A stretch of 64,000 bases of DNA from SAR116 cluster bacterium AG-335-B03 (GTDB lineage: Bacteria > Pseudomonadota > Alphaproteobacteria > Puniceispirillales > Marisalimonadaceae), in the NCBI GenBank assembly GCA_003282435.1, contig QBZG01000004.1, forward strand, positions 18,357 to 82,356. Direction: 5' to 3'. A program made the position numbers and the translations under genes. Under the pieces are notes generated by a model. The model was given only the letters and a program-made list of their open reading frames with translations. It did not search any database and was not told the DNA's origin. This document shows positions 41,116-54,486 of this stretch, one piece after another (position 1 is the first letter of the stretch; each line of letters starts with the position of its first letter).

Positions 41116-41313
41116 TTGATTGTATATTGCTCTACAATATTATTTATAAGTCATGATCTGGCAGTTATTCGTCAAATGTGTGATAGGATAGCTGTGTTAA
41201 AAAAAGGTGGTAATTGCGAAATAAATAAAACTGAAAATATTTTTAATAATCCTAAACATTATTACACCAAAGAACTTTTAAGATTAATGCCAAAAATTGT
41301 ATCTGTATTTTAA
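41116..41313 (+). pseudogene. C-terminal remnant of an oligopeptide/dipeptide (DppD/DppF-like) ABC ATPase
   Basis: Only the H-loop region is left: LFISHDLAVIRQMCDRIAVLKKG...NPKHYYTKELL; no Walker A, signature or Walker B. Confidence 0.78.
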
Positions 41314-41417: not shown

Positions 41418-42080
41418 ATGCACATCATGAAGTCTATATTATTCGGCTCAATAGGTTCAGTAGTAGAAAGTTCTGAAATTCAAAGACAAGCTTTTAATGA
41501 AGCTTTTAAAGAGTTTGGTGTTGACTGGTATTGGAATGTAGCTAACTACATCAAAATGTTACAAAAGCCAGGAGGATTAAACCGTCTGATTGAATATTCA
41601 AAAAATGAAATAAATTCAGATGATGCTAAACAAATACATTTACTAAAAATTAAGCATTTCAAATTATTATCGGAAAATAATTTAAAGCCAAGAGACGGCG
41701 TTTTAGACTTAATTCAATATGCGTTGAAACATAATATTAAAATTGGTTTTATTACAACTACAACAAAAGGTACTCTTGATTTAGTAATCAATAATTTATC
41801 AAAATATATTGATTTTTCAAAATTTGACTTAATTACTCATGATGAGCTTGTCACTAATAGAAAACCTGACCCAGAGATTTATAAATTTGCTTTAAATTAC
41901 CTTGGTTCAACTCAATCGAGCTCGATAGCAATTGAGAATACTTTAGAAAGTTGTAATTCTTCAATAAATGCAAAAATACAAACTTTTCTTTACCCAGGTG
42001 AATATACTATTTATGGCGAAAATTCTTTAATAAGCAGAGATATATTAAAATCTGTAAAATCATTCTTTGAAGAAGGTTAA
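41418..42080 (+). CDS. HAD-superfamily (CbbY/phosphoglycolate-phosphatase-like) protein lacking the catalytic Asp residues
   Basis: HAD fold features NRKPDPEIYKFAL (motif III Lys) and SIAIENTLESC (motif IV region), but motif I is ILFGSIGSVVES instead of DxDGT. Confidence 0.75.
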   Translation: MHIMKSILFGSIGSVVESSEIQRQAFNEAFKEFGVDWYWNVANYIKMLQKPGGLNRLIEYSKNEINSDDAKQIHLLKIKHFKLLSENNLKPRDGVLDLIQYALKHNIKIGFITTTTKGTLDLVINNLSKYIDFSKFDLITHDELVTNRKPDPEIYKFALNYLGSTQSSSIAIENTLESCNSSINAKIQTFLYPGEYTIYGENSLISRDILKSVKSFFEEG

Positions 42081-42090
42081 ATGATACCCA

Positions 42091-43140
42091 ATGGCTGAGA
42101 TTGAATTAATTAAAGTATCTAAAAGTTGGGGAGATTTCAATGCTGTAGTTGATTTTAATTTAACAATTAAAGATAAAGAGTTTTTAGTGTTATTAGGCCC
42201 TTCTGGATGTGGTAAAACAACTACAATGAGAATGATAGCTGGATTAGAGGATCTAACAGGCGGAATTATCAAAATTGATAATAAAATCGTAAATGATTTA
42301 GAACCTAAAGACAGAGATATTTCTATGGTATTTCAATCATATGGTCTATATCCAAATATGACAGTCTATGAAAATGTTAGATTTCCTCTAAAAATAAGAA
42401 AGGTACCTAAAGAAAACCATTATAATTTAGTTATGGAAGCAGTCAATTTAGTTGAATTAAATGATTTTTGCCATAGAAAACCTTCTGAACTATCTGGAGG
42501 ACAAAAACAGAGAGTTGCATTAGCAAGAGCCTTAGTAAGAAAACCTAATGTTTTTTTAATGGATGAACCATTATCTAACCTTGATGCTAAATTGAGAGTT
42601 TCGACTAGAGGTCAGATTAAACACTTACAAAACCAACTTCAAATAACTACAATATACGTTACTCACGATCAAATTGAAGCAATGACTTTGGCTGATAGAG
42701 TTGTTGTTATGAATAAGGGTATTATTCAACAAATTGGTAAACCAAAACAAATTTATGACAAGCCGATAAATACATTTGTTGCTTCGTTCATAGGTAACCC
42801 CCCTATGAATTTAATTAATGGTCATATCAAGGATAATGATTTTATTGCAAAAGACATAAAAATTGAAAATTTCAATTACCAGAGTGGGAAATATAAACTT
42901 GGATTTCGTGCAGAAGATGGTAAAATAATCAAAAGTATTAATGGAAATATTAAAGGACCGATTTTTTCTATAGAACTTTTGGGGGATGCGACGATGGTTA
43001 CAGTAAAAGTAAATGAAAATCTAATTTCAGTAAAAATGAAAAATACTTTTGATGCATCTATAGGAGATGTTGTTAGTATATCAATTTTATCATCTAAGTG
43101 TCAGATTTTTGATGATAAAACTGGTTTTAATTTAAGTTAA
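42091..43140 (+). CDS. CUT1-type ABC transporter ATP-binding protein (UgpC/MalK-like)
   Basis: GPSGCGKTTTMRMIAGLE, LSGGQKQRVALARAL, MDEPLSNLDAKLR, C-terminal TOBE region. Confidence 0.92.
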   Translation: MAEIELIKVSKSWGDFNAVVDFNLTIKDKEFLVLLGPSGCGKTTTMRMIAGLEDLTGGIIKIDNKIVNDLEPKDRDISMVFQSYGLYPNMTVYENVRFPLKIRKVPKENHYNLVMEAVNLVELNDFCHRKPSELSGGQKQRVALARALVRKPNVFLMDEPLSNLDAKLRVSTRGQIKHLQNQLQITTIYVTHDQIEAMTLADRVVVMNKGIIQQIGKPKQIYDKPINTFVASFIGNPPMNLINGHIKDNDFIAKDIKIENFNYQSGKYKLGFRAEDGKIIKSINGNIKGPIFSIELLGDATMVTVKVNENLISVKMKNTFDASIGDVVSISILSSKCQIFDDKTGFNLS

Positions 43141-43153
43141 TCAAGGAGAAATT

Positions 43154-44380
43154 ATGAAACTATTATTAATTAAAATTTTTTCAACAATTGTTTTTTTAAC
43201 CTCATCAAGTGCATTCGCTTGTAGCATTGATGCTAGGGTTAGTATTGTTGGAAATGAATTTCCAGCAATTCAAACTGTTGGATCGGGCGCAAAAGAATGT
43301 AAAGGAGCTAAAGTTTCTGCAAATTTAACTGCAGATCATCAAAAAATTAATGTTGCAGGTATGAGTAGTGAGCCAGCTGAATACACCTCAGCTATTGTCG
43401 CAAATACTTCAATTGTTGCATTGCTTAATGAAGACCTTATAAGACCGTTAGATAGTTTAGTTAAAAAACATGGTAAAGGTTTGAAAAAGAACCAACTTAT
43501 TACTATTGATGGTAAAATAATGGCCGTAGCATTTATGGCTAATGCACAACATCTTGTTTATAGAAAAGATATTTTGAAAAAACTAAATATTAATGTTCCA
43601 AAGACCTATGAAGAAATGCTTTCTGCAGCAAAAAAAATTAGAGATGCTGGTCTTGTAAAAAACCCTGTAGGCGGAGCTTATAAAGCTGGCTGGAATTTAG
43701 CTCAAGAATTTAATAATATGTTTATAGGCTATGGAGGATCACATTTTAAAGGCAACACCGCAGAACCAAATGTAAATTCTGAGTCTGGTGTAAAAGCTCT
43801 TGAAATGATGAAAGCTTTGTCAAATTATATGAATCCAGATTTTCTTACCCATGATAGTAACGCTACTAATGCTGAGTTTAGAGCTGGAAACGTTGCTATT
43901 ATGAATATGTGGGGTAGTAGAGCTGCAACATTAGTAGATGCTGATGGTGTTAGTGATGAAGTTAAAAATGGTATGGATATAGCTGGACCTATGACAGTTG
44001 GGGGAGGTAAAACTCCTGCTTCGACATTGTTTTGGGATGGTTGGACTGTAGCTAAAAAAATAAGTGATAAAGAAGCTGAGGCTACTTTTATTGCAATGAC
44101 TAATGCTATTAGACCTTCAATAATGGATAACGATGACATAAGAAAGCAAGCTGTATGGTTAATTGATGGTTATAAGCCGACAGAAGCAGCTAAAGGTGTT
44201 TTTGCAGCAGCAAAAATGAGCACTACTCCCTATCCAATGTTACCATATGCAGGATTAATGCATTCAGCAATTGGAAAAGAAATATCTGATTTTATGCAAG
44301 GTAAAGAAACAGCAAAAAAGACTTTGTCTGACATAGAAGATGCTTACAGAGCTTCTGCAAAAGAAAAAGGTTTTTTATAA
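43154..44380 (+). CDS. ABC transporter extracellular solute-binding protein (family 1)
   Basis: Signal peptide MKLLLIKIFSTIVFLTSSSAFA, then an SBP_bac_1-like body (VYRKDILKKLNINVPKTYEEMLSAAKKI, NMWGSRAATL). Confidence 0.88.
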   Translation: MKLLLIKIFSTIVFLTSSSAFACSIDARVSIVGNEFPAIQTVGSGAKECKGAKVSANLTADHQKINVAGMSSEPAEYTSAIVANTSIVALLNEDLIRPLDSLVKKHGKGLKKNQLITIDGKIMAVAFMANAQHLVYRKDILKKLNINVPKTYEEMLSAAKKIRDAGLVKNPVGGAYKAGWNLAQEFNNMFIGYGGSHFKGNTAEPNVNSESGVKALEMMKALSNYMNPDFLTHDSNATNAEFRAGNVAIMNMWGSRAATLVDADGVSDEVKNGMDIAGPMTVGGGKTPASTLFWDGWTVAKKISDKEAEATFIAMTNAIRPSIMDNDDIRKQAVWLIDGYKPTEAAKGVFAAAKMSTTPYPMLPYAGLMHSAIGKEISDFMQGKETAKKTLSDIEDAYRASAKEKGFL

Positions 44381-44386
44381 AAAGGC

Positions 44387-44413
44387 AACTAGAGAGTTTA
44401 TGGCTCTCTAGTT
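44387..44413 (+). promoter_or_regulatory. Intercistronic stem-loop between solute-binding protein and permease genes
   Basis: Perfect 10-bp inverted repeat AACTAGAGAG-TTTATGG-CTCTCTAGTT, starting 7 nt after the SBP stop codon. Confidence 0.75.
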
Positions 44414-44420
44414 TAAAAAG

Positions 44421-45446
44421 ATGAAACATAGAACTTTCTTTTGGTTTATACTTCCAACATTCTTGGCAATGTTTTTCTTTATAACATTGCCAATAATTTC
44501 TGTTACAATTCAATCTTTGCACACCCCTCATGAAAATGTTCTAGTTACCGTAGAAAACTGCGATCCTTTTGGTTGTAAAAAGGCTACATCTATAAATCAT
44601 GAGGCTACACAAAATTTAAAAAAAAATAATCCGTTAGGTAAATATGTTGGTTTAGATATCTATTTTGATAGAGGTCATTTAGCAATTGAACAGGTCAAAA
44701 ATTTATGGTCAAAGACAAATAATTTTTTTGAATTCTTAAAATTAACTGCTGATTTACCATTTTATAAAGCCTTATTTTTTACCTTGACTTTCACATTTAC
44801 AGTTACACCAATAATGCTTGTTCTTGGACTATTAATTGCCTTAGGAGTGAATTCATTTAATAAAAAATTAAAAGGGCTAATTATATTTTTTTCTCTTTTG
44901 CCAATGATAGTTACGCCATTAATAGGTTCGATAATATTATTTTGGATGATAGATAGTAGAGGAATTGTAGGAAACTTTTTACAAATATTGTTTGAAGACC
45001 CAGGTTTGTCTCTTAAAGCATCTACATTCTTAACTTGGATAATGTTAATAGTCTACGGGGTATGGCATGCAATTCCTTTTTCATTTATTGTTTTTTATGC
45101 AGGATTACAGACCCTTCCAAAAGATCAAATAGAATCCGCACAAATTGATGGTGCAAATACTTTCCAACAAACCATACACATAATAATACCGCACATAATG
45201 CCACTAATTACATTTGTGACATTAATGCAGCTAATGGACAATTTCAGGGTATTTGAACCAATTGTAGGGTTTAATGCAGAAGCTCACGCAACCTCATTGA
45301 GCTGGATTATTTTTAATGATCTTGGAGGCGAAACAAGGCAATTATCTGCTGCAGCAACTTCTTCTATCCTAACTATTTTTGGTATTATAATTTTACTGTT
45401 GCCAGTTTTAATAAAGACATGGAAAGAATTTGAGTTTAAAAAATGA
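44421..45446 (+). CDS. ABC sugar-type permease (MalF/UgpA-like)
   Basis: Multi-TM; EAA loop ESAQIDGANTFQQTIHIIIPHIMP. Confidence 0.9.
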   Translation: MKHRTFFWFILPTFLAMFFFITLPIISVTIQSLHTPHENVLVTVENCDPFGCKKATSINHEATQNLKKNNPLGKYVGLDIYFDRGHLAIEQVKNLWSKTNNFFEFLKLTADLPFYKALFFTLTFTFTVTPIMLVLGLLIALGVNSFNKKLKGLIIFFSLLPMIVTPLIGSIILFWMIDSRGIVGNFLQILFEDPGLSLKASTFLTWIMLIVYGVWHAIPFSFIVFYAGLQTLPKDQIESAQIDGANTFQQTIHIIIPHIMPLITFVTLMQLMDNFRVFEPIVGFNAEAHATSLSWIIFNDLGGETRQLSAAATSSILTIFGIIILLLPVLIKTWKEFEFKK

Positions 45447-46333
45447 TTTTTAACTTGAATAAAGATATTAATAATAAGACTTTTATATCAATTATAATCT
45501 ATTTTTTAATTTTTATATGGGTTTTTGTAGCGGCTTTTCCTTTTATCTGGACTTTTTGGGGTTCTTTCAAAGTAGAATTAGATTTTTTTTCAATTTCAAA
45601 TTGGACAAATGCAATAACAGGTAAAAATACAGAGCAAACTTATGGTTCTCCTTTTACTTTTGTTGGTTATCATGGTGCATGGGTTCAAGAAGAGTTTTGG
45701 AAGGCTTTTATAAATACATCGTTAGTATGTTTTTTTGTGGTAATAACTTCACTAACAATAGGTACACTTGGCGCATACGCGCTTTCACGATCAAATTATA
45801 AATACACATTTTGGCTTTTAATAATGGCACTTATATTTAGAGCAATGCCTCCTATAACGCTTGTTGCTGGTTACCTTCCACCCTTTTTCGAATGGAATTT
45901 GTGGGGGACTTTACCAACAACAATTATAGTTCTAGTTTCAATAAATCAGCCATTTACCCTATGGATGTTGCATTCTTTTTTTCAAAATATACCTAAAGAA
46001 CTTGATGAGAGTGCAAAGGTTGATGGTTGTTCACAATATCAAGCTTTTGGCCATGTAATTGTACCTGTCATGTGGCCAGGAATAATTACTACTGGATTAT
46101 TTAGTTTTTTGTTAGCTTATAATGATTTTGCTGTTACTTCTATGCTTTTATCAGATGAAAACAGAACAATGGTACCAAAGATAGCTGCTTTCTTAGGTAC
46201 AACTTATACTGAAGGAAATGTTATGTTTGCAGTTGCAGCTGTCGTTTCTGCTACTGTACCACTTTTCATATTAATAATGTTTTTTCAAACTAAATTAGTA
46301 AGTGGTTTAACCCAAGGTGCCGTGAAAGGTTAG
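45443..46333 (+). CDS. ABC sugar-type permease (MalG/UgpE-like)
   Basis: Multi-TM; EAA loop ESAKVDGCSQYQAFGHVIVPVMWPGI; ATGA overlap with the preceding permease. Confidence 0.9.
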   Translation: MIFNLNKDINNKTFISIIIYFLIFIWVFVAAFPFIWTFWGSFKVELDFFSISNWTNAITGKNTEQTYGSPFTFVGYHGAWVQEEFWKAFINTSLVCFFVVITSLTIGTLGAYALSRSNYKYTFWLLIMALIFRAMPPITLVAGYLPPFFEWNLWGTLPTTIIVLVSINQPFTLWMLHSFFQNIPKELDESAKVDGCSQYQAFGHVIVPVMWPGIITTGLFSFLLAYNDFAVTSMLLSDENRTMVPKIAAFLGTTYTEGNVMFAVAAVVSATVPLFILIMFFQTKLVSGLTQGAVKG

Positions 46334-46348
46334 GAGTGTTAAATATAA

Positions 46349-47812
46349 ATGAAAGATAAAATAATAGAGCAATCAATTCTCACTTCTTGTAATGATTCAT
46401 CTAAAACAAAAATTACTAAAGAAATTATTGAGAAAATGATTGTAGCACTTAATGACCACAGAATAGATGATATTGGAGAGTTTTTCTCTAATAATTTAAA
46501 CTGGTTTGGGAATTATGGTTGTGGAACTAAATTAGGTTTAAAAGAATTTCAAGAAAATTGGCAAGTTCCATTTCAAAATGCTTTTTCAGAAAAAGTTTGT
46601 GTGGATGAGGCAAGATTGTTTGAAGGAGATTGGGGTGCTGCATTTGGAAGGCAAGAAGCAGTACATAGCGGAACATTTATGGGTATAAGCCCAACAAATA
46701 AAAAAGTTAACATAAGGTATATGGATTTTTGGCAAACCAAAGATAATAAAATTATTAATAATTGGGTGATGGTAGATTTTCCAGACGTGTTGAGACAATT
46801 AGGGGTTGATATTTTTAAAGGTGAAGGTTGGGAAAAATTTGATAGTCAAAAAAATTTAATTAATCAATATTCACTTGATCATAATGAAATTGAAGATTTT
46901 ATATACAGAATTACAGAAGAAATTTGGGAAAATAAAAAAGTTGAAAATATCAGAAACTATTACTCATCAGATGTAATTGTAAGATCACCAAGTATTACAA
47001 CATACGATTGTGATAGTGTAGTTCAAGAAACTTACAAAACACTTGAGCAATTCCCAGACAGACAGTTAATTGGCGAGGATGTCATTTCGTTTGGATCTAT
47101 AAAAAGTACTTATCTTAGTTCTCATAGGATCCTATCTACAGGAACTCATTTAGGCGACGGATTTTATGGTAAAGCGACAGGTAAGAAAGTTATATATAGG
47201 GCCATAGCTGATTGTTTGGTTGTTAACAATAAAATCGTAGAAGAATGGATAATTAGAGATGAAGCAAGTATTTTAAATCAATTAGGCTTTAAAGTAAGTG
47301 AATTTGTTGAACAACGAATTAGTGATAGAACTTTTAAAAAAAATGACGTTGAAACTTCAAAAAATTCATTTATCAAAAAAAATATAATGAGTGATTGTGA
47401 AAATATTTACGCAAAAACATATAAAGATTCATTTATAAATCTTTTAGAGGATAAATTTTCATTTGAGAAAAAAGTTTATGAGCGTTCAGCACAGTTATAC
47501 TGGTTTGGTGGAGAATTAATTAATACTGTTGAAAATATATATGAGAAATGGAACTTGTTTCTTTCATGCTTTAAAATTTTAAAATGTGAAGTTTCAAATA
47601 GCATTTCTTTAGATCAAAATAATATGAGGCCAAGGGCAGCATTGAGATGGAGGTTAATTTGCTTGCATAACTCTAATGGTTTTTTTGGCTTACCAACTAA
47701 CAAAGAAATTGAAATTTATGGTATTTCTCACGCCGAGTTCGGCAAACAAGGAATTGTGAGGGAGTTTATTTTAATAGACGAAATTTCAATTTGGAAACAA
47801 TTATTGCTTTAA
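46349..47812 (+). CDS. Protein with three SnoaL/NTF2-like domains
   Basis: Three repeats of similar pattern: ...LNWFGNYG..WQVPFQNAF...VMVDFPDVLRQLG; ...YYSSDVIVRSP...WIIRDEASILNQLG; ...AQLYWFGG...FILIDEISIWKQL. Confidence 0.72.
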   Translation: MKDKIIEQSILTSCNDSSKTKITKEIIEKMIVALNDHRIDDIGEFFSNNLNWFGNYGCGTKLGLKEFQENWQVPFQNAFSEKVCVDEARLFEGDWGAAFGRQEAVHSGTFMGISPTNKKVNIRYMDFWQTKDNKIINNWVMVDFPDVLRQLGVDIFKGEGWEKFDSQKNLINQYSLDHNEIEDFIYRITEEIWENKKVENIRNYYSSDVIVRSPSITTYDCDSVVQETYKTLEQFPDRQLIGEDVISFGSIKSTYLSSHRILSTGTHLGDGFYGKATGKKVIYRAIADCLVVNNKIVEEWIIRDEASILNQLGFKVSEFVEQRISDRTFKKNDVETSKNSFIKKNIMSDCENIYAKTYKDSFINLLEDKFSFEKKVYERSAQLYWFGGELINTVENIYEKWNLFLSCFKILKCEVSNSISLDQNNMRPRAALRWRLICLHNSNGFFGLPTNKEIEIYGISHAEFGKQGIVREFILIDEISIWKQLLL

Positions 47813-47828
47813 TATTTATAGGAAGATT

Positions 47829-48791
47829 ATGAACGAATTAAATATAAATAATAGGTTAGTTAGATATGGAGAATTGATACCATGTAAAACTGCTTTTATA
47901 GACACGCATACACCAGGCTCAGATCAAAAAGAAAATTTTACTATTATTGGTTCTGGTGTTTCAGAAAATCCAGAACAACATGTTCATATAAGTATACCTC
48001 ACGGTTTTAATATTGGTGCAGCTGGACAACCACCAAAATGTAATAACTCTCTTCATAGTCATCGGACCGCTGAAGTTTTTTTTGTTTTGTCTGGAAGGTG
48101 GAGGTTCTTTTGGGGGCGTTATGGTAAAGCCGGAGAAGTTATACTTGAAAAGGGTGATATTTTTAACATTCCGACAGGTATTTTCAGAGGATTTGAGAAT
48201 ATTGGAGAAACTTACGGAATGCTTATGGCTATATTAGGAGGCGATGATGCAGGTGGTGGTGTGATATGGGCACCTGAAGTGCTTTCAGAAGCAAAGAAAC
48301 ATGGTTTAATATTATCGGAAAAGGGTAAAATCTATGACACACTTAAAGATCAAAAAATACCTAACGATGAAAATGAAATGAAACCTCTAAAAGATGATGA
48401 ACTGAAAAATTTTCCAGAATATACAACTAGTGAGGTTGTTCCTTATTATGTTGCAAGATATTTAGACCTGTATTCTTTATCATCTGAAACTTCATGTAAA
48501 GTAATAGGTGAAAAAGGAAAGATTTATGATAAACCAGGATTTGAAGTCGAATTTATTTCAGACAAGTCTAAAAACAAATATGGAATATACACTAAAGACG
48601 TTGTTTTTATGCCTGTTGATGGATATTGGAGAATAAAGTCTGAAATATTTGACATAATTTTAAATCCAGGCGATACGTTTTCACTTCCTAAAAATAACAA
48701 ATATACATTAGAGCCTACAAAGCCAGGGATTGCTTCAATTTATAAAGTCATTCCAACGGATGACAACCCTGGCTCAACTCAAAGGAAATAG
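47829..48791 (+). CDS. Bicupin-like protein
   Basis: First cupin motif 1 NSLHSHRTAEVFFVLSG and motif 2 GDIFNIPTGIFRGFENIG; second half GDTFSLPKNNKYTLEP is degenerate. Confidence 0.75.
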   Translation: MNELNINNRLVRYGELIPCKTAFIDTHTPGSDQKENFTIIGSGVSENPEQHVHISIPHGFNIGAAGQPPKCNNSLHSHRTAEVFFVLSGRWRFFWGRYGKAGEVILEKGDIFNIPTGIFRGFENIGETYGMLMAILGGDDAGGGVIWAPEVLSEAKKHGLILSEKGKIYDTLKDQKIPNDENEMKPLKDDELKNFPEYTTSEVVPYYVARYLDLYSLSSETSCKVIGEKGKIYDKPGFEVEFISDKSKNKYGIYTKDVVFMPVDGYWRIKSEIFDIILNPGDTFSLPKNNKYTLEPTKPGIASIYKVIPTDDNPGSTQRK

Positions 48792-48797
48792 TAATTT

Positions 48798-49919
48798 ATG
48801 ACCATTTTAACAACACATGTAGGTTCTCTTCCAAGACCTAAGATAGTTTCTGAATTACTTTTCAAAAGAGAAAAGGAAGAGGAGTATAATCTGCAATATT
48901 TTGAAGAAGTAATATCAAAGAGTGTAGAAGAGGTTGTAAAAAAACAATTAGATGTTGGGGTCGATATAATTTCAGATGGTGAAATGTCTAAAATATCTTA
49001 TGCAACTTATGTTAAAGATAGGTATAATGGTTTTGCTGGTGATAGCGAGAGAAATCCACCACAAGATTTAGAAAAGTTTCCAAATTATATGAAAAAAATT
49101 GCAGATAGTGGAGGTACACCAACTTATTCACGACCTTGCTGCGTTGCAGAAATATCTTCAAAAAAGAATAATGATTTAACTAATGATATTAAAAATATTT
49201 TGAGTGCATCAAAAAAGTTTAATCATAATAAAATTTTTATGAACGCAGCTTCTCCTGGAGTGATATCACTTTTTCTTAGCAATTCTTATTATTCAAATAG
49301 AAATGAATATTTAGATGCAATTGCATCAGCTATGCAAGATGAATATGAGACAATTGTAAATTCTGGAATCAAACTGCAGTTAGATTGCCCAGATTTAGCT
49401 TTATCTAGACATATGACTTTTAAAACTGAGAGTGATAAAGATTTTGTAAAAATTGCTTATGAAAATATGGAAATCCTTAATCAAAGCCTTGAAAATATTT
49501 CATCACAAATGTTGAGGCTCCATGTTTGTTGGGGAAATTATGAGGGTCCACATATACATGATATATCTATTGAACAGATTTTTGATGTTTTGATGTCATT
49601 TAAGGGTAATTATTTACTTTTTGAATCTTCAAATCCAAGACATCAACATGAGTGGGAAATTTTTGAGAAGTTAAAAAATAAAATACCTGAAAACAAAATA
49701 CTCATCCCTGGAGTTCTCGATACTACTAGTAATTTTGTTGAACATAGTTCTCTAGTAAGACAAAGAATTGAAAAGTTTGTCAATATTGTTGGAAAAGATA
49801 GAGTGATAGCTGGAACAGATTGTGGATTTGGAACGTTTGCAGGTTTTGGAAACGTAGATCCAGATATCGCTTATTTAAAGCTACAGTCTTTAGTTGAAGG
49901 TGCAAGTAGAGTTAAATAA
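48798..49919 (+). CDS. Cobalamin-independent methionine synthase C-domain-like zinc thiol/methyl transferase (MetE-C/EaCoMT-type, COG0620)
   Basis: TTHVGSLPRPK N-terminus; zinc-ligand pattern HVC (H242, C244), E276 (LFESSNPRHQHE) and C342 (AGTDCGFGTF). Confidence 0.85.
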   Translation: MTILTTHVGSLPRPKIVSELLFKREKEEEYNLQYFEEVISKSVEEVVKKQLDVGVDIISDGEMSKISYATYVKDRYNGFAGDSERNPPQDLEKFPNYMKKIADSGGTPTYSRPCCVAEISSKKNNDLTNDIKNILSASKKFNHNKIFMNAASPGVISLFLSNSYYSNRNEYLDAIASAMQDEYETIVNSGIKLQLDCPDLALSRHMTFKTESDKDFVKIAYENMEILNQSLENISSQMLRLHVCWGNYEGPHIHDISIEQIFDVLMSFKGNYLLFESSNPRHQHEWEIFEKLKNKIPENKILIPGVLDTTSNFVEHSSLVRQRIEKFVNIVGKDRVIAGTDCGFGTFAGFGNVDPDIAYLKLQSLVEGASRVK

Positions 49920-49941
49920 AAATTTTACGGGTTTAAAATAA

Positions 49942-50934
49942 TTGAATTTCCAATCTGAAAAACAATTAATTCTCAATTATTATAATGATATAGGTAATAG
50001 TAAAATTGAAGAAATACCAAAAGTATTATCTAATTATTGTTCAGAAGATTTATTGTGGCGTGGTTTTCATCCTTTTAATGAAATTATTGGATTAGATAAT
50101 TTATATTTACAATTCTGGGTACCATTTAAAAAAAGTTTTTTTAATTCTCAAAGAAGGATGGATATCTTTTTAGCTGGATATAATAAAATATCTGGTAATG
50201 AAGGTGTTTGGGTTGTCTCAATGGGACATTTAATGAGCTTGTTTGATAATCCTTGGATTGGCATCAAAGATACCAAAAAAATTGCAATATTACGTTACTG
50301 TGAATTTAGTAAAATACAAAATGGTAAAATTACTGAAGTGGCGATGTTCTTTGATATACCTCATCTAATGCTACAAGCGGGAATAAAACCTTTCCCAAGT
50401 GAAACTGGTATTAGTTTGGTTCAACCAGGTCCTTTAACACATGATGGTTTAATGTTTAACGAACAAGATCCTAATGTAGGAAATAAAACATTAGAAATAA
50501 TTGAAAATATGATTAATGACGTGAAAGTTTGGACAAGTACAAGTAGGGCATCATTAATTGATGAGCTAAAGAAAAGTTGGAACGATAATATGGTTTGGTG
50601 GGGACCAACAGGAATTGGTTCAACTTATACAATTGAAAGATATGCAGACCAACATGCAGGACCTTTTAGAGATTCTTTTAAAGACAGAAAATTTAACGGT
50701 CATCTTTGTAGAGTATCAGAAGGCAATTATGGTGGTTTTTTTGGTTGGCCTAATTTAACTTTAACACCCATAAAAAAGTTTATGGGAATTAAAACCACTC
50801 CAAAATCATCTGAAATGAGAGTGATAGATATGTATCGTAGAGAAGGTAAGAAATTAACAGAAAATTGGGTATTTATAGACTTGTTACATTTTTTGAAAAT
50901 TTTAGGAATAGATATACTTAAGAACTTAAAGTAA
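49942..50934 (+). CDS. Protein with two SnoaL/NTF2-like domains
   Basis: YCSEDLLWRGFHPFNEIIG...FWVPFKKSF...MFFDIPHLMLQAG, then SWNDNMVWWGPTGIGS...WVFIDLLHFLKILGIDI. Confidence 0.72.
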   Translation: MNFQSEKQLILNYYNDIGNSKIEEIPKVLSNYCSEDLLWRGFHPFNEIIGLDNLYLQFWVPFKKSFFNSQRRMDIFLAGYNKISGNEGVWVVSMGHLMSLFDNPWIGIKDTKKIAILRYCEFSKIQNGKITEVAMFFDIPHLMLQAGIKPFPSETGISLVQPGPLTHDGLMFNEQDPNVGNKTLEIIENMINDVKVWTSTSRASLIDELKKSWNDNMVWWGPTGIGSTYTIERYADQHAGPFRDSFKDRKFNGHLCRVSEGNYGGFFGWPNLTLTPIKKFMGIKTTPKSSEMRVIDMYRREGKKLTENWVFIDLLHFLKILGIDILKNLK

Positions 50935-50946
50935 ATTTTTGTCTAT

Positions 50947-51765
50947 TTAAAATACAGGGGTAAATGTATTAATAACCTTTTTAAACCCTTTTACTTTTAT
51001 TTCATCATATTTTTTACAATCAATCTCATTTATTATTAGGGATTTTGTTTTTTCTGAAATTAAAATTTGTCCTATTGGAGATATGCTTTCTAACCTTGAA
51101 GCAAGGTTTACAGTTCCACCTATAACAGTGTAGTCTAAACGTTTTTCACTTCCAAAATTTCCTACCGTGCACTCACCAGAATTAATCCCTATTCTAATAT
51201 TTAGGGGATTTAAAAGATTAAAATCATTCATAAAAACTTTAGATAGTTTTTTCATAGTATTTTGCATCTCTATTGCCATTTTTACACAATTTATAGCGTC
51301 CTGATTTTTCCCAGCAGTTTGAGGGTCGCCAAAAAAAATCATCACAGAGTCACCAATATACTTGTCAATAGTACCTCCATATTTGAGTGCTATTTCTGAC
51401 ATTTTAGTCAGGTATAAGTTTAACATTTCAGTTAGTGGAGCTGAGTCCATGTTATCAGAAATTGATGTAAAAGAAACAATGTCAGAGAAAAAAACAGTAA
51501 GAAACTTTCTTTCACTTTCAATCAAAACTTTTTTTTCACCAGAGAATATAGAACTAAATAATTGAGGCGAAAGATATTTTGAAAGTTGACTAGCTATTCC
51601 CTCAATTTCTCTACTTTTTTCCTTAGCTACCTCTTCGGCATTTTTAGCTATTTGTTTTTGTTTGTCAATTTCAGAAGCTAAATTACGACGTAATTTGGAT
51701 TCAAGTTGTAATTTTGCAACTTGCATCTTAAGGGTTCTAATTTCATTACTTTGGCTGGTTTCCAT
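50947..51765 (-). CDS. Class III adenylate/guanylate cyclase with N-terminal coiled coil, no TM
   Basis: FFSDIVSFTSISD, YGGTIDKYIGDSVMIFFGDP, RIGINSGECTVGNFGSEKRLDYTVIGGTVNLASRLES. Confidence 0.92.
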   Translation of the reverse strand: METSQSNEIRTLKMQVAKLQLESKLRRNLASEIDKQKQIAKNAEEVAKEKSREIEGIASQLSKYLSPQLFSSIFSGEKKVLIESERKFLTVFFSDIVSFTSISDNMDSAPLTEMLNLYLTKMSEIALKYGGTIDKYIGDSVMIFFGDPQTAGKNQDAINCVKMAIEMQNTMKKLSKVFMNDFNLLNPLNIRIGINSGECTVGNFGSEKRLDYTVIGGTVNLASRLESISPIGQILISEKTKSLIINEIDCKKYDEIKVKGFKKVINTFTPVF

Positions 51766-51807
51766 TTTAATTAACGATTATCAATTAATGTAAAAATTTT
51801 ACTTTTT

Positions 51808-52131
51808 TTAAGTTTCGAAAGGATCGACTAGTTTTTCATTCGTAATTTTCTCTGAAGAAACATATCTCTGCATTTCACTTGGCATAGTTACGATAACATC
51901 GTTTAAACCCACTTTTTCTAGTACGTCTATTATGGACTGTTCATCTTCAGCATACCAATGACAAAAAAAGAAGTCATCTTTACCCATCCAATGCTGTAAG
52001 GTCTCAGCCTTCTCTGTTTTTAATCCAGCAAAAAATTCTTTGTCTGTCATTTCGCCTTGTTGCTTAATTACGTCTTTAATTGTATCTGGATTAGACCAAG
52101 TATGTGTACAAATATAATGTTTTTTTTTCAT
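51808..52131 (-). CDS. Conserved small protein, ferredoxin-fold (DUF4242-like?) hypothetical
   Basis: 107-aa ORF with own intergenic context: HWMGKDDFFFCHWYAEDEQSIIDVLEKVGL. Confidence 0.55.
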   Translation of the reverse strand: MKKKHYICTHTWSNPDTIKDVIKQQGEMTDKEFFAGLKTEKAETLQHWMGKDDFFFCHWYAEDEQSIIDVLEKVGLNDVIVTMPSEMQRYVSSEKITNEKLVDPFET

Positions 52132-52236
52132 TAATTACCTCCAAAATAGAAACTATTTTAGGATATAAAAAAAAGATATATCAATCAATATTAATTGGTA
52201 GATTGTTTATTAAGATTTGAAAAAATTATAGATTAA

Positions 52237-52497
52237 TTAGCTTTTTATTACAGATCCCTCTTGAATAGAAACTTTTGCCATAGCCTGTTCACTTAGACCT
52301 TGCATTGCCTTCATAGTTTCAATTTTTTTACCAGCTATATTTATATTTTCAAAAATTTCTACTATAAATCCATTATTATCGCCCGTCTTAAATAACATTC
52401 TTTTATATTTGTCTTCCTCAATATTGGAACCAATAGCCTGAACTACCGCCCATAATGATGGAGCCAATAGAGTGAAATTAATATTGCGCCCGTACAA
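52237..52497 (-). CDS. Hypothetical small protein
   Basis: 86-aa ORF abutting the GYD-like gene upstream in the same strand; TTG start overlapping the stop region. Confidence 0.5.
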   Translation of the reverse strand: MYGRNINFTLLAPSLWAVVQAIGSNIEEDKYKRMLFKTGDNNGFIVEIFENINIAGKKIETMKAMQGLSEQAMAKVSIQEGSVIKS

Positions 52498-52848
52498 TTA
52501 ATCCTCCTGAGATTTTTGTTTTGCTGATATATATGTAGCCATATTTTTTGAGGCTAATTGAAAAATATTTTTCCAATCTTCTGCTTCAAATCCTCTATAC
52601 CAATTAAATGAAGAAAAAGCTCCACTTGCATATATTAAATTTGTTGTTGCAGCAATATCTTCATCACTCTTAGCCATGACAACACACATAAAATCAAACT
52701 CAGGATGATTTAAGTATAAAAATTCAATAAATTTGGCTCCAAATGCTTCAGCTAAAGGTTCAGTAATTTCACGTCTGTTTTGGGGTTTATTTAACATAGA
52801 TGCAGCTGTTTCTTGGGAAGTTTTACCAGTTATAATATATTTTTGCAT
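52498..52848 (-). CDS. GYD-domain-like small protein
   Basis: MQKYIITGKTSQETAASML...EAFGAKFIEFLYLNHPEFDFMCVVMAKSDEDIAATTNLIYASGAFSSF resembles the GYD family. Confidence 0.6.
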   Translation of the reverse strand: MQKYIITGKTSQETAASMLNKPQNRREITEPLAEAFGAKFIEFLYLNHPEFDFMCVVMAKSDEDIAATTNLIYASGAFSSFNWYRGFEAEDWKNIFQLASKNMATYISAKQKSQED

Positions 52849-52995
52849 GTTGATTTAGACCTTATCTAATTGAATGAAATTCGATATTACTTATAAAATT
52901 ATAACAATTTCAATTAAATTAATTTTTATGTTTACTTATTAAGCAAATTAAACCTAATATTAATTTTAAAAAATTTAAGGGGGAGGAAAGTATTA

Positions 52996-54486
52996 ATGGC
53001 TTTTAAATACAAAGAAAAATATGGGAACTATATTAATGGTAAATTTGTAGACCCAGTAGACGGTAAGTTTTTTGATAATATTACACCAATAAATGGTAAG
53101 GTTTTATGCCAGATTGCTAGATCAAACGAAAAAGATATAAATTCAGCTTTAGATGCAGCTCACGCAGCAAAAGATGCTTGGGGCACAACAAGTGTTACTG
53201 AAAGAAGTAACATTATGATACAAATTGCCCAAATATTAGAAGATAATCTTGCCATGTTAGCAGAGGCTGAGACTTGGGATAATGGAAAAGGCATAAGAGA
53301 AACTACTGCTGCGGATTTACCTTTAGGTATTGATCATTTTAGATATTTTGCTAGTGTAATTAGAGCTCAAGAAGGAACACTTGCGGAGCTTAATAATGAC
53401 ACTGTTTCTTATCTAATACCTGAACCATTAGGTGTGGTTGGTCAAATAATTCCATGGAACTTTCCTTTATTAATGGCTATTTGGAAATTAGCACCTGCTT
53501 TAGCAACTGGAAATTGTGTTGTTTTAAAACCTGCAGAACAAACACCAGCTTCAATAATGGTAATGATGGAATTAATTGGTCATTTGATACCATCAGGTGT
53601 TGTAAACATAGTTAATGGTTACGGACTAGAAGCTGGTAAACCATTAGCATCAAGTACAAGAATTGCCAAAATAGCATTTACTGGTGAGACGACTACAGGA
53701 AGAATGATATTACAATATGCGAGTCAAAACTTAATTCCTAGTACTTTAGAACTAGGTGGAAAGTCTCCAAATATTTTCTTTAAGGATATTGCTGAAGCAG
53801 ATGATGACTTTTTCGATAAGTGTATTGAAGGTTTTGTTATGTTTGCTCTTAATCAAGGTGAAGTTTGCACCTGCCCTAGTAGAGCATTAATACATGAAGA
53901 TATTTATGATAAATTTATAGAAAGGTGTATTGAAAGGACAAAAGCAATAACTCAAGGAGATCCTCTTGATTCAAATACTATGATAGGAGCAATGGCTTCT
54001 GCTGAGCAATATGAAAAAGTAAAATCATATTTAGACCTTGGAAAAAAAGAAGGTGCAGAAGTTCTTGTTGGTGGTGATGTCGCTCAAATGAGTGGTGATC
54101 TTGCAAATGGATATTATATACAACCTACAATATTTAAAGGTCATAATAAGATGAGAATATTCCAAGAAGAAATTTTTGGACCGGTTGTTTCTGTTTGTAC
54201 TTTCAAAACAGATGAAGAGGCATTAGAAATAGCCAATGATACTCTTTATGGTCTAGGTGCTGGTATATGGACAAGAGATCTCAATACATCTTATAGATTT
54301 GGACGCGCCATTAAAGCTGGAAGGGTTTGGACAAATTGTTATCATGATTACCCAGCTCATGCTGCCTTTGGTGGTTATAAGCAATCTGGTATTGGTCGTG
54401 AAAACCATTTAATGATGTTAAACCATTATCAGCAAACTAAGAATTTATTAGTAAGCTACAGCCCAAAAAAGCTGGGTTTCTTTTAA
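52996..54486 (+). CDS. NAD-dependent aldehyde dehydrogenase (ExaC/AcoD-like)
   Basis: [67 protein letters not shown]. Confidence 0.95.

Follow-up and report, generated by a model that had tools for sequence, protein, structure and literature searches.

The DxD signature of motif I occurs across the HAD superfamily. Non-catalytic HAD proteins as such are already known, and catalytically dead members have, to our knowledge, seldom been described in bacteria. The open-access literature on inactive CbbY, HAD pseudophosphatases, and SnoaL clusters with a HisD-like dehydrogenase, as searched here, describes no GSxG CbbY-like family, and PcrP was the sole relevant precedent that it offered. The PcrP/PA2803 subfamily of Pseudomonas has been assigned a non-catalytic role; PA2803 has a truncated cap, has lost motifs II to IV in addition, and occurs in Pseudomonads only (PMC12632274).

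The HAD protein analysed here is encoded in a 64,000-nucleotide stretch of DNA from SAR116 cluster bacterium AG-335-B03 (the window), and it belongs to a family with a GSxG motif I. This family resembles PcrP/PA2803 in its HAD C1 fold, the loss of the nucleophile, and its maintenance as a subfamily. In contrast to PcrP/PA2803, however, it has a full cap and motifs II to IV, is closest to CbbY, and occurs in Alphaproteobacteria and on other Pseudomonadota contigs, which places it outside that subfamily. With CbbY (Rhodobacter sphaeroides 4UAR/4UAT; Arabidopsis thaliana 4UAV) it shares the C1-cap fold, the xETxELxRxAFN segment, the GGxxR stretch of the cap, TTT in motif II, KP in motif III, and E(D) in motif IV, whereas it lacks the motif I Asp pair. 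The beta-phosphoglucomutase of Lactococcus lactis and other subfamily IA HADs have the same fold and cap class, but only ~17% identity to the HAD protein and a catalytic DxD.

A CbbY-like protein without the motif I aspartates

The open reading frame that starts at position 41418 of the window reads MHIMKSILFGSIGSVVESSEIQRQAF... and extends over 220 aa to a stop at 42080. The frame given in an earlier sequence-only reading is open, but its start most likely lies at the second Met (conserved ATG 41427), since in several homologues no Met precedes this position. All residue numbers below (G7, I9, K146, and so on) count from this ATG. The gene and its motifs map as follows, all on the forward strand.

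41427..42080, +: GSxG-family CbbY-like HAD pseudo-phosphatase, 217 aa (ORF, homologue starts, AlphaFold2, Foldseek)
41445..41456, +: motif I GSIG in place of D-V-D-G of CbbY, both catalytic Asp gone (95 GSxG versus 49 DxD sequences; alignment to 4uat)
41472..41486, +: S16 to R20, with Ser16 and Gln19 where canonical CbbY has invariant Glu and His (alignment of 95 versus 49 rows)
41571..41585, +: cap substrate loop G49 G50 .. R53, retained; Lys and Glu of CbbY at 51 and 52 gone (alignment)
41754..41762, +: motif II, T110-T112, retained (alignment)
41862..41867, +: motif III, K146-P147, retained (alignment)
41934..41939, +: motif IV, E170-N171 (alignment; Asp171 in 86% of the family)

Both the HAD_2 and the Hydrolase profiles exceed their cut-offs for this protein (57 bits versus 23.8 and 33.1 versus 26.4, respectively), and the Pfam HAD_2 match to the window ORF (3.5e-15) begins only at residue 15, past motif I. 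Motif I itself reads FGSIGS, with both the nucleophile and the acid/base Asp missing. Alignment to R. sphaeroides CbbY sets G7 and I9 opposite the nucleophile D8 and the acid/base D10, which confirms the previously proposed replacement of both catalytic residues; the G10 and I12 named there are the same positions numbered from 41418. A wrong start or frame masking a DxD was rejected, as no DxDGT is present elsewhere in the HAD frame and the homologues support the start at 41427. Conversely, the subfamily IA residues of motifs II to IV (T110, K146, E170) are in place. The motif III Lys had been described as kept, and motif IV as lacking the ED of many family members; both observations hold, the second acid of motif IV being Asn in the window genus and in 13% of the family and Asp in 86%. 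HAD-mechanism hydrolysis of phosphate esters is very probably impossible for this protein.

A widespread family split from canonical CbbY

The replacement motif is strictly kept. Among ~95 homologues carrying G(S/A)xG, both Gly are present in 100%, Ser in 92%, and Ile in 94%, and the 24 copies from the genus and the order are identical in GSIG. None of the 95 GSxG rows has an Asp at motif I, versus 100% of 49 canonical CbbY rows. Comparison of these two sets defined as fixed differences D to G, V to S/A, and D to I within the motif, E to S16 and H to Q19 beyond it, and the loss of the CbbY Lys, Glu, and Lys at 51, 52, and 145. Common to both sets are N24, W36, G49-G50, R53, K74, R89, T110-T112, K146-P147, and E170. 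A scan of 84,980 genomes yielded 83 confirmed loci (80 kept), nearly all of them G-S-x-G, in SAR116, other marine Alphaproteobacteria, Rhodobacteraceae, Devosiaceae, Granulosicoccaceae, and a few other contigs; scans at class, phylum, and family level added Rhodobacteraceae-like genomes bearing GSIG or GAIG.

In maximum-likelihood trees, canonical CbbY forms one side of a branch with 100/99 support, also when the motif columns are removed, and the window protein does not group inside this clade. The trees are unrooted, and we take DxD as the ancestral state because it is present across the HAD superfamily. The family profile nevertheless matches R. sphaeroides CbbY over nearly the whole length (E=6.5e-56), and CbbY is the nearest solved relative by both sequence and fold, as would befit a genuine CbbY acting as the xylulose bisphosphate (XuBP) phosphatase of the Calvin cycle. 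Against this identity stand the missing DxD, the separate clade of canonical CbbY, and the coexistence of a canonical CbbY with the GSxG protein in three Rhodobacteraceae-like genomes (G966, G975, G894). Moreover, a search for Rubisco (PF00016), with positive controls, found it in 0 of 61 relatives, which excludes a CbbY role there. We therefore rejected a Calvin-cycle function, and consider it highly improbable that the protein is a true CbbY.

Several related sequences deserve mention in their own right. Rhodobacteraceae-like genomes contain a second CbbY-like lineage (L256, L257, L258, L259, L264) with [GA]G[IM]G at motif I, followed by ECAxLDRAAWN, in which both Asp are likewise absent. 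Within the canonical clade, one CbbY relative (L262) has Asn for the nucleophile Asp (FNADGT), possibly a separate loss of activity. GSxG copies on contigs labelled Flavobacteriaceae, Flammeovirgaceae, Porticoccaceae, and Cellvibrionales (L047, L083, L073, L102) cluster with proteobacterial ones, and some of these contigs are probably mis-binned. The single-cell genome G024 carries an intact copy and a truncated one (~first 66 aa) on one contig (L109, L012). A FGSIG family member annotated as 'HAD-IA family hydrolase' lies on plasmid pROLI81 of Roseobacter litoralis (L270, 8992-9663), between TrkH and an L,D-transpeptidase.

Genetic coupling to a catabolic module

In the window, the HAD gene is the first gene of a module that continues on the forward strand with the following genes.

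42091..43140, +: UgpC/MalK-type ABC transporter ATPase, beginning 10 bp past the HAD stop
43154..44380, +: extracellular solute-binding protein (SBP_bac_1)
44421..46333, +: two MalF/MalG-type permeases (44421-45446 and 45443-46333)
46349..47812, +: multi-domain SnoaL-like protein, 487 aa
47829..48791, +: cupin protein
48798..49919, +: MetE-like protein (Meth_synt_2)
49942..50934, +: second SnoaL-like protein, right end of the module (L106 deletion border at 50932)

The conserved module spans 42091-50934 of the window and is also found in L220, L224, and L226-L233. Elsewhere it adds a HisD-like dehydrogenase, an SDR, a LacI regulator, an alpha/beta hydrolase, and HpcH/HpaI- or RraA-like and lactonase-like proteins. 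The HisD-like, SDR, lactonase-like, and HpcH/RraA aldolase-like annotations suggest oxidative sugar-acid breakdown, and our guess is that sugar acids are the substrate. The annotated enzymes of the module include no obvious kinase. Scans for promoters and terminators returned no more matches than scans of shuffled sequences. Upstream of the HAD gene, positions 41134-41310 encode a remnant, the 59 C-terminal aa, of an ABC transporter ATPase of 578 aa; this remnant shares 93% identity with the L071 protein. Relatives have the whole transporter at this place, which the window strain has lost.

Linkage of the HAD gene to the SnoaL/HisD/SDR/MetE module recurs in at least six lineages with differing gene orders: the window genus, G039, the AG-404-G18 group, G966, G220, G394, and a symporter group (L047, L073, L102). 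Conserved linkage to the ABC/SnoaL cluster had been named earlier as a check, and this recurrence supports it, although with a shift of partner. The coupling holds for the catabolic enzymes and the SnoaL proteins but not for the ABC transporter as such: a sodium:solute symporter takes its place in the clusters of the symporter group, and the HAD gene of many Rhodobacteraceae stands alone between what we take, from the protein starts, to be carB and aspS. Both arrangements make it less likely that the ABC ATPase is a constant partner.

Co-occurrence points in the same direction. With Fisher values that overstate independence because the genomes are related, a close MetE-like orthologue (E <1e-140) was present in 8 of the 9 genomes with GSxG versus 12 of the 376 without it in the class (385 genomes; p=1e-10; one member, G367, was scored GSxG from downstream sequence only, its motif I region being out of frame or missing), and in 16/18 versus 82/231 of 249 Rhodobacteraceae-like genera (p=1e-5), where the two genes are mostly unlinked, while in the order outside the genus the solute-binding protein accompanied 7/7 GSxG genomes versus 5/17 of the others (p=0.002). 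Furthermore, the module and the HAD gene were lost together in two relatives, by one deletion each: AG-896-N20 (L106) lacks the equivalent of window positions 41693-50931 and L025 that of 41519-54320, so that in both most of the HAD gene (its 3' part) is gone, along with everything as far as the right end of the module. G015, an apparent module without the HAD gene, was dismissed because its contig ends at the module.

A dead HAD fold linked to such a module could serve as a protein-protein adaptor that binds a pathway protein (the ATPase, a SnoaL protein, or the LacI regulator) and no small ligand. This has a precedent in the inactive PcrP, which binds Acp3 and PA3518 (PMC12632274), and the HAD gene lies immediately upstream of the ATPase in the window genus. 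However, no partner gene is constantly adjacent to it, its neighbours varying between lineages, and PcrP is devoid of all four motifs (I to IV) and of a large part of the cap, whereas in the GSxG family motifs II to IV and the cap pocket are preserved, a pattern that favours a ligand. We hold the adaptor role to be doubtful.

Purifying selection and predicted fold

Across 25 pairs (Nei-Gojobori), dN/dS ranged from 0.03 to 0.47, with 23 of the 25 values below 0.3 and the two highest arising from pairs with dS <0.1. The gene is thus under purifying selection, and the drifting pseudogene that the sequence-only reading had named as the alternative does not fit values so far below 1. Decay of a CbbY gene still open by chance could explain the truncated copies of a few relatives (L106, L025, L109), but those of L106 and L025 are the deletions that also take the module, and the new motif is strictly kept across families. 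Together with dN/dS, this strict conservation rules out decay, and we regard such an origin as vanishingly improbable.

AlphaFold2 predicted an intact fold with full C1 cap helices (pLDDT 93.8, pTM 0.87), in keeping with the earlier claim of a lost phosphatase active site, here evidenced by the absence of any Asp at motif I, on a retained fold. CbbY occupies ranks 1 to 4 of the Foldseek matches to this model (best, 4uau; E=3.1e-15), the top ones being the D10N variant with bound XuBP. A fold so preserved might also have become an enzyme of other chemistry in the same pathway, with the GSIG loop as a new active site devoid of the Asp pair, e.g., an isomerase, a lyase, or a Mg-independent hydrolase. 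The changes of Glu to S16 and His to Q19 along with motif I, and the near invariance of the motif II-IV residues, are what a function switch would be expected to leave. On the other hand, S8, the sole polar side chain of the new loop, is replaced by Ala in 7% of rows, making a family-wide serine nucleophile unlikely, and the best fold and PDB sequence matches include no HAD-fold enzyme known to act without the motif I nucleophile. We therefore deem a new catalytic activity unlikely.

Discussion

We favour, with a probability of roughly 0.5, the interpretation that the HAD protein is a non-hydrolytic CbbY paralogue serving as a ligand-binding accessory of the module's pathway. It probably binds a molecule or a partner instead of cleaving phosphate, because its motif is kept under selection and the gene sits in the same uptake-and-breakdown cluster in marine relatives; the more specific function of a ligand-binding accessory, close to the substrate-binding or regulatory role proposed in the sequence-only reading, is put forward tentatively, at somewhat less than even odds.

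In the mechanism that we envisage, an ancestral CbbY-type sugar-phosphate phosphatase would have lost the nucleophile and the acid/base Asp, and hence most of the Mg2+ site, and a G(S/A)IG loop would have become fixed in place of the Asp pair. The retained pocket, formed by the motif II Thr, the motif III Lys, the motif IV Glu, Arg53 of the cap, and the backbone amides of the GSIG loop, could then bind, but not cleave, a sugar intermediate that is phosphorylated or acidic. Through movement of the C1 cap, the occupied state would be signalled to the SnoaL/HisD-like/SDR/MetE-like pathway, either to one of its enzymes or to a regulator, the protein acting as a sensor, chaperone, or brake. The residues that the pocket retains point to continued binding of a ligand, for which an anionic sugar compound is the most likely candidate. 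Loss of the equivalents of CbbY Lys51, Glu52, and Lys145 indicates that this ligand is probably not XuBP, and with no obvious kinase in the module a phosphorylated one is not self-evident. The lack of a constant neighbour, and the many Rhodobacteraceae copies that stand by themselves between carB and aspS, likewise speak against this interpretation.

Beside PcrP, the GSxG family represents a second, independent, and far more widespread case of a non-catalytic HAD, with a strictly kept replacement motif, and cultured Rhodobacterales carrying the gene are possible test organisms. The finding also draws attention to a catabolic module of abundant marine bacteria that has yet to be characterised. 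As a speculative extension, the CbbY-derived pseudo-phosphatases, comprising the GSxG family and the second [GA]GIG lineage of Rhodobacteraceae, might serve as metabolite sensor for a marine catabolic pathway not yet described, controlling the SnoaL/HisD-like/MetE-like enzymes or their regulator. If so, this sensor family would recognise a pathway intermediate that binds in a phosphatase pocket no longer able to catalyse.
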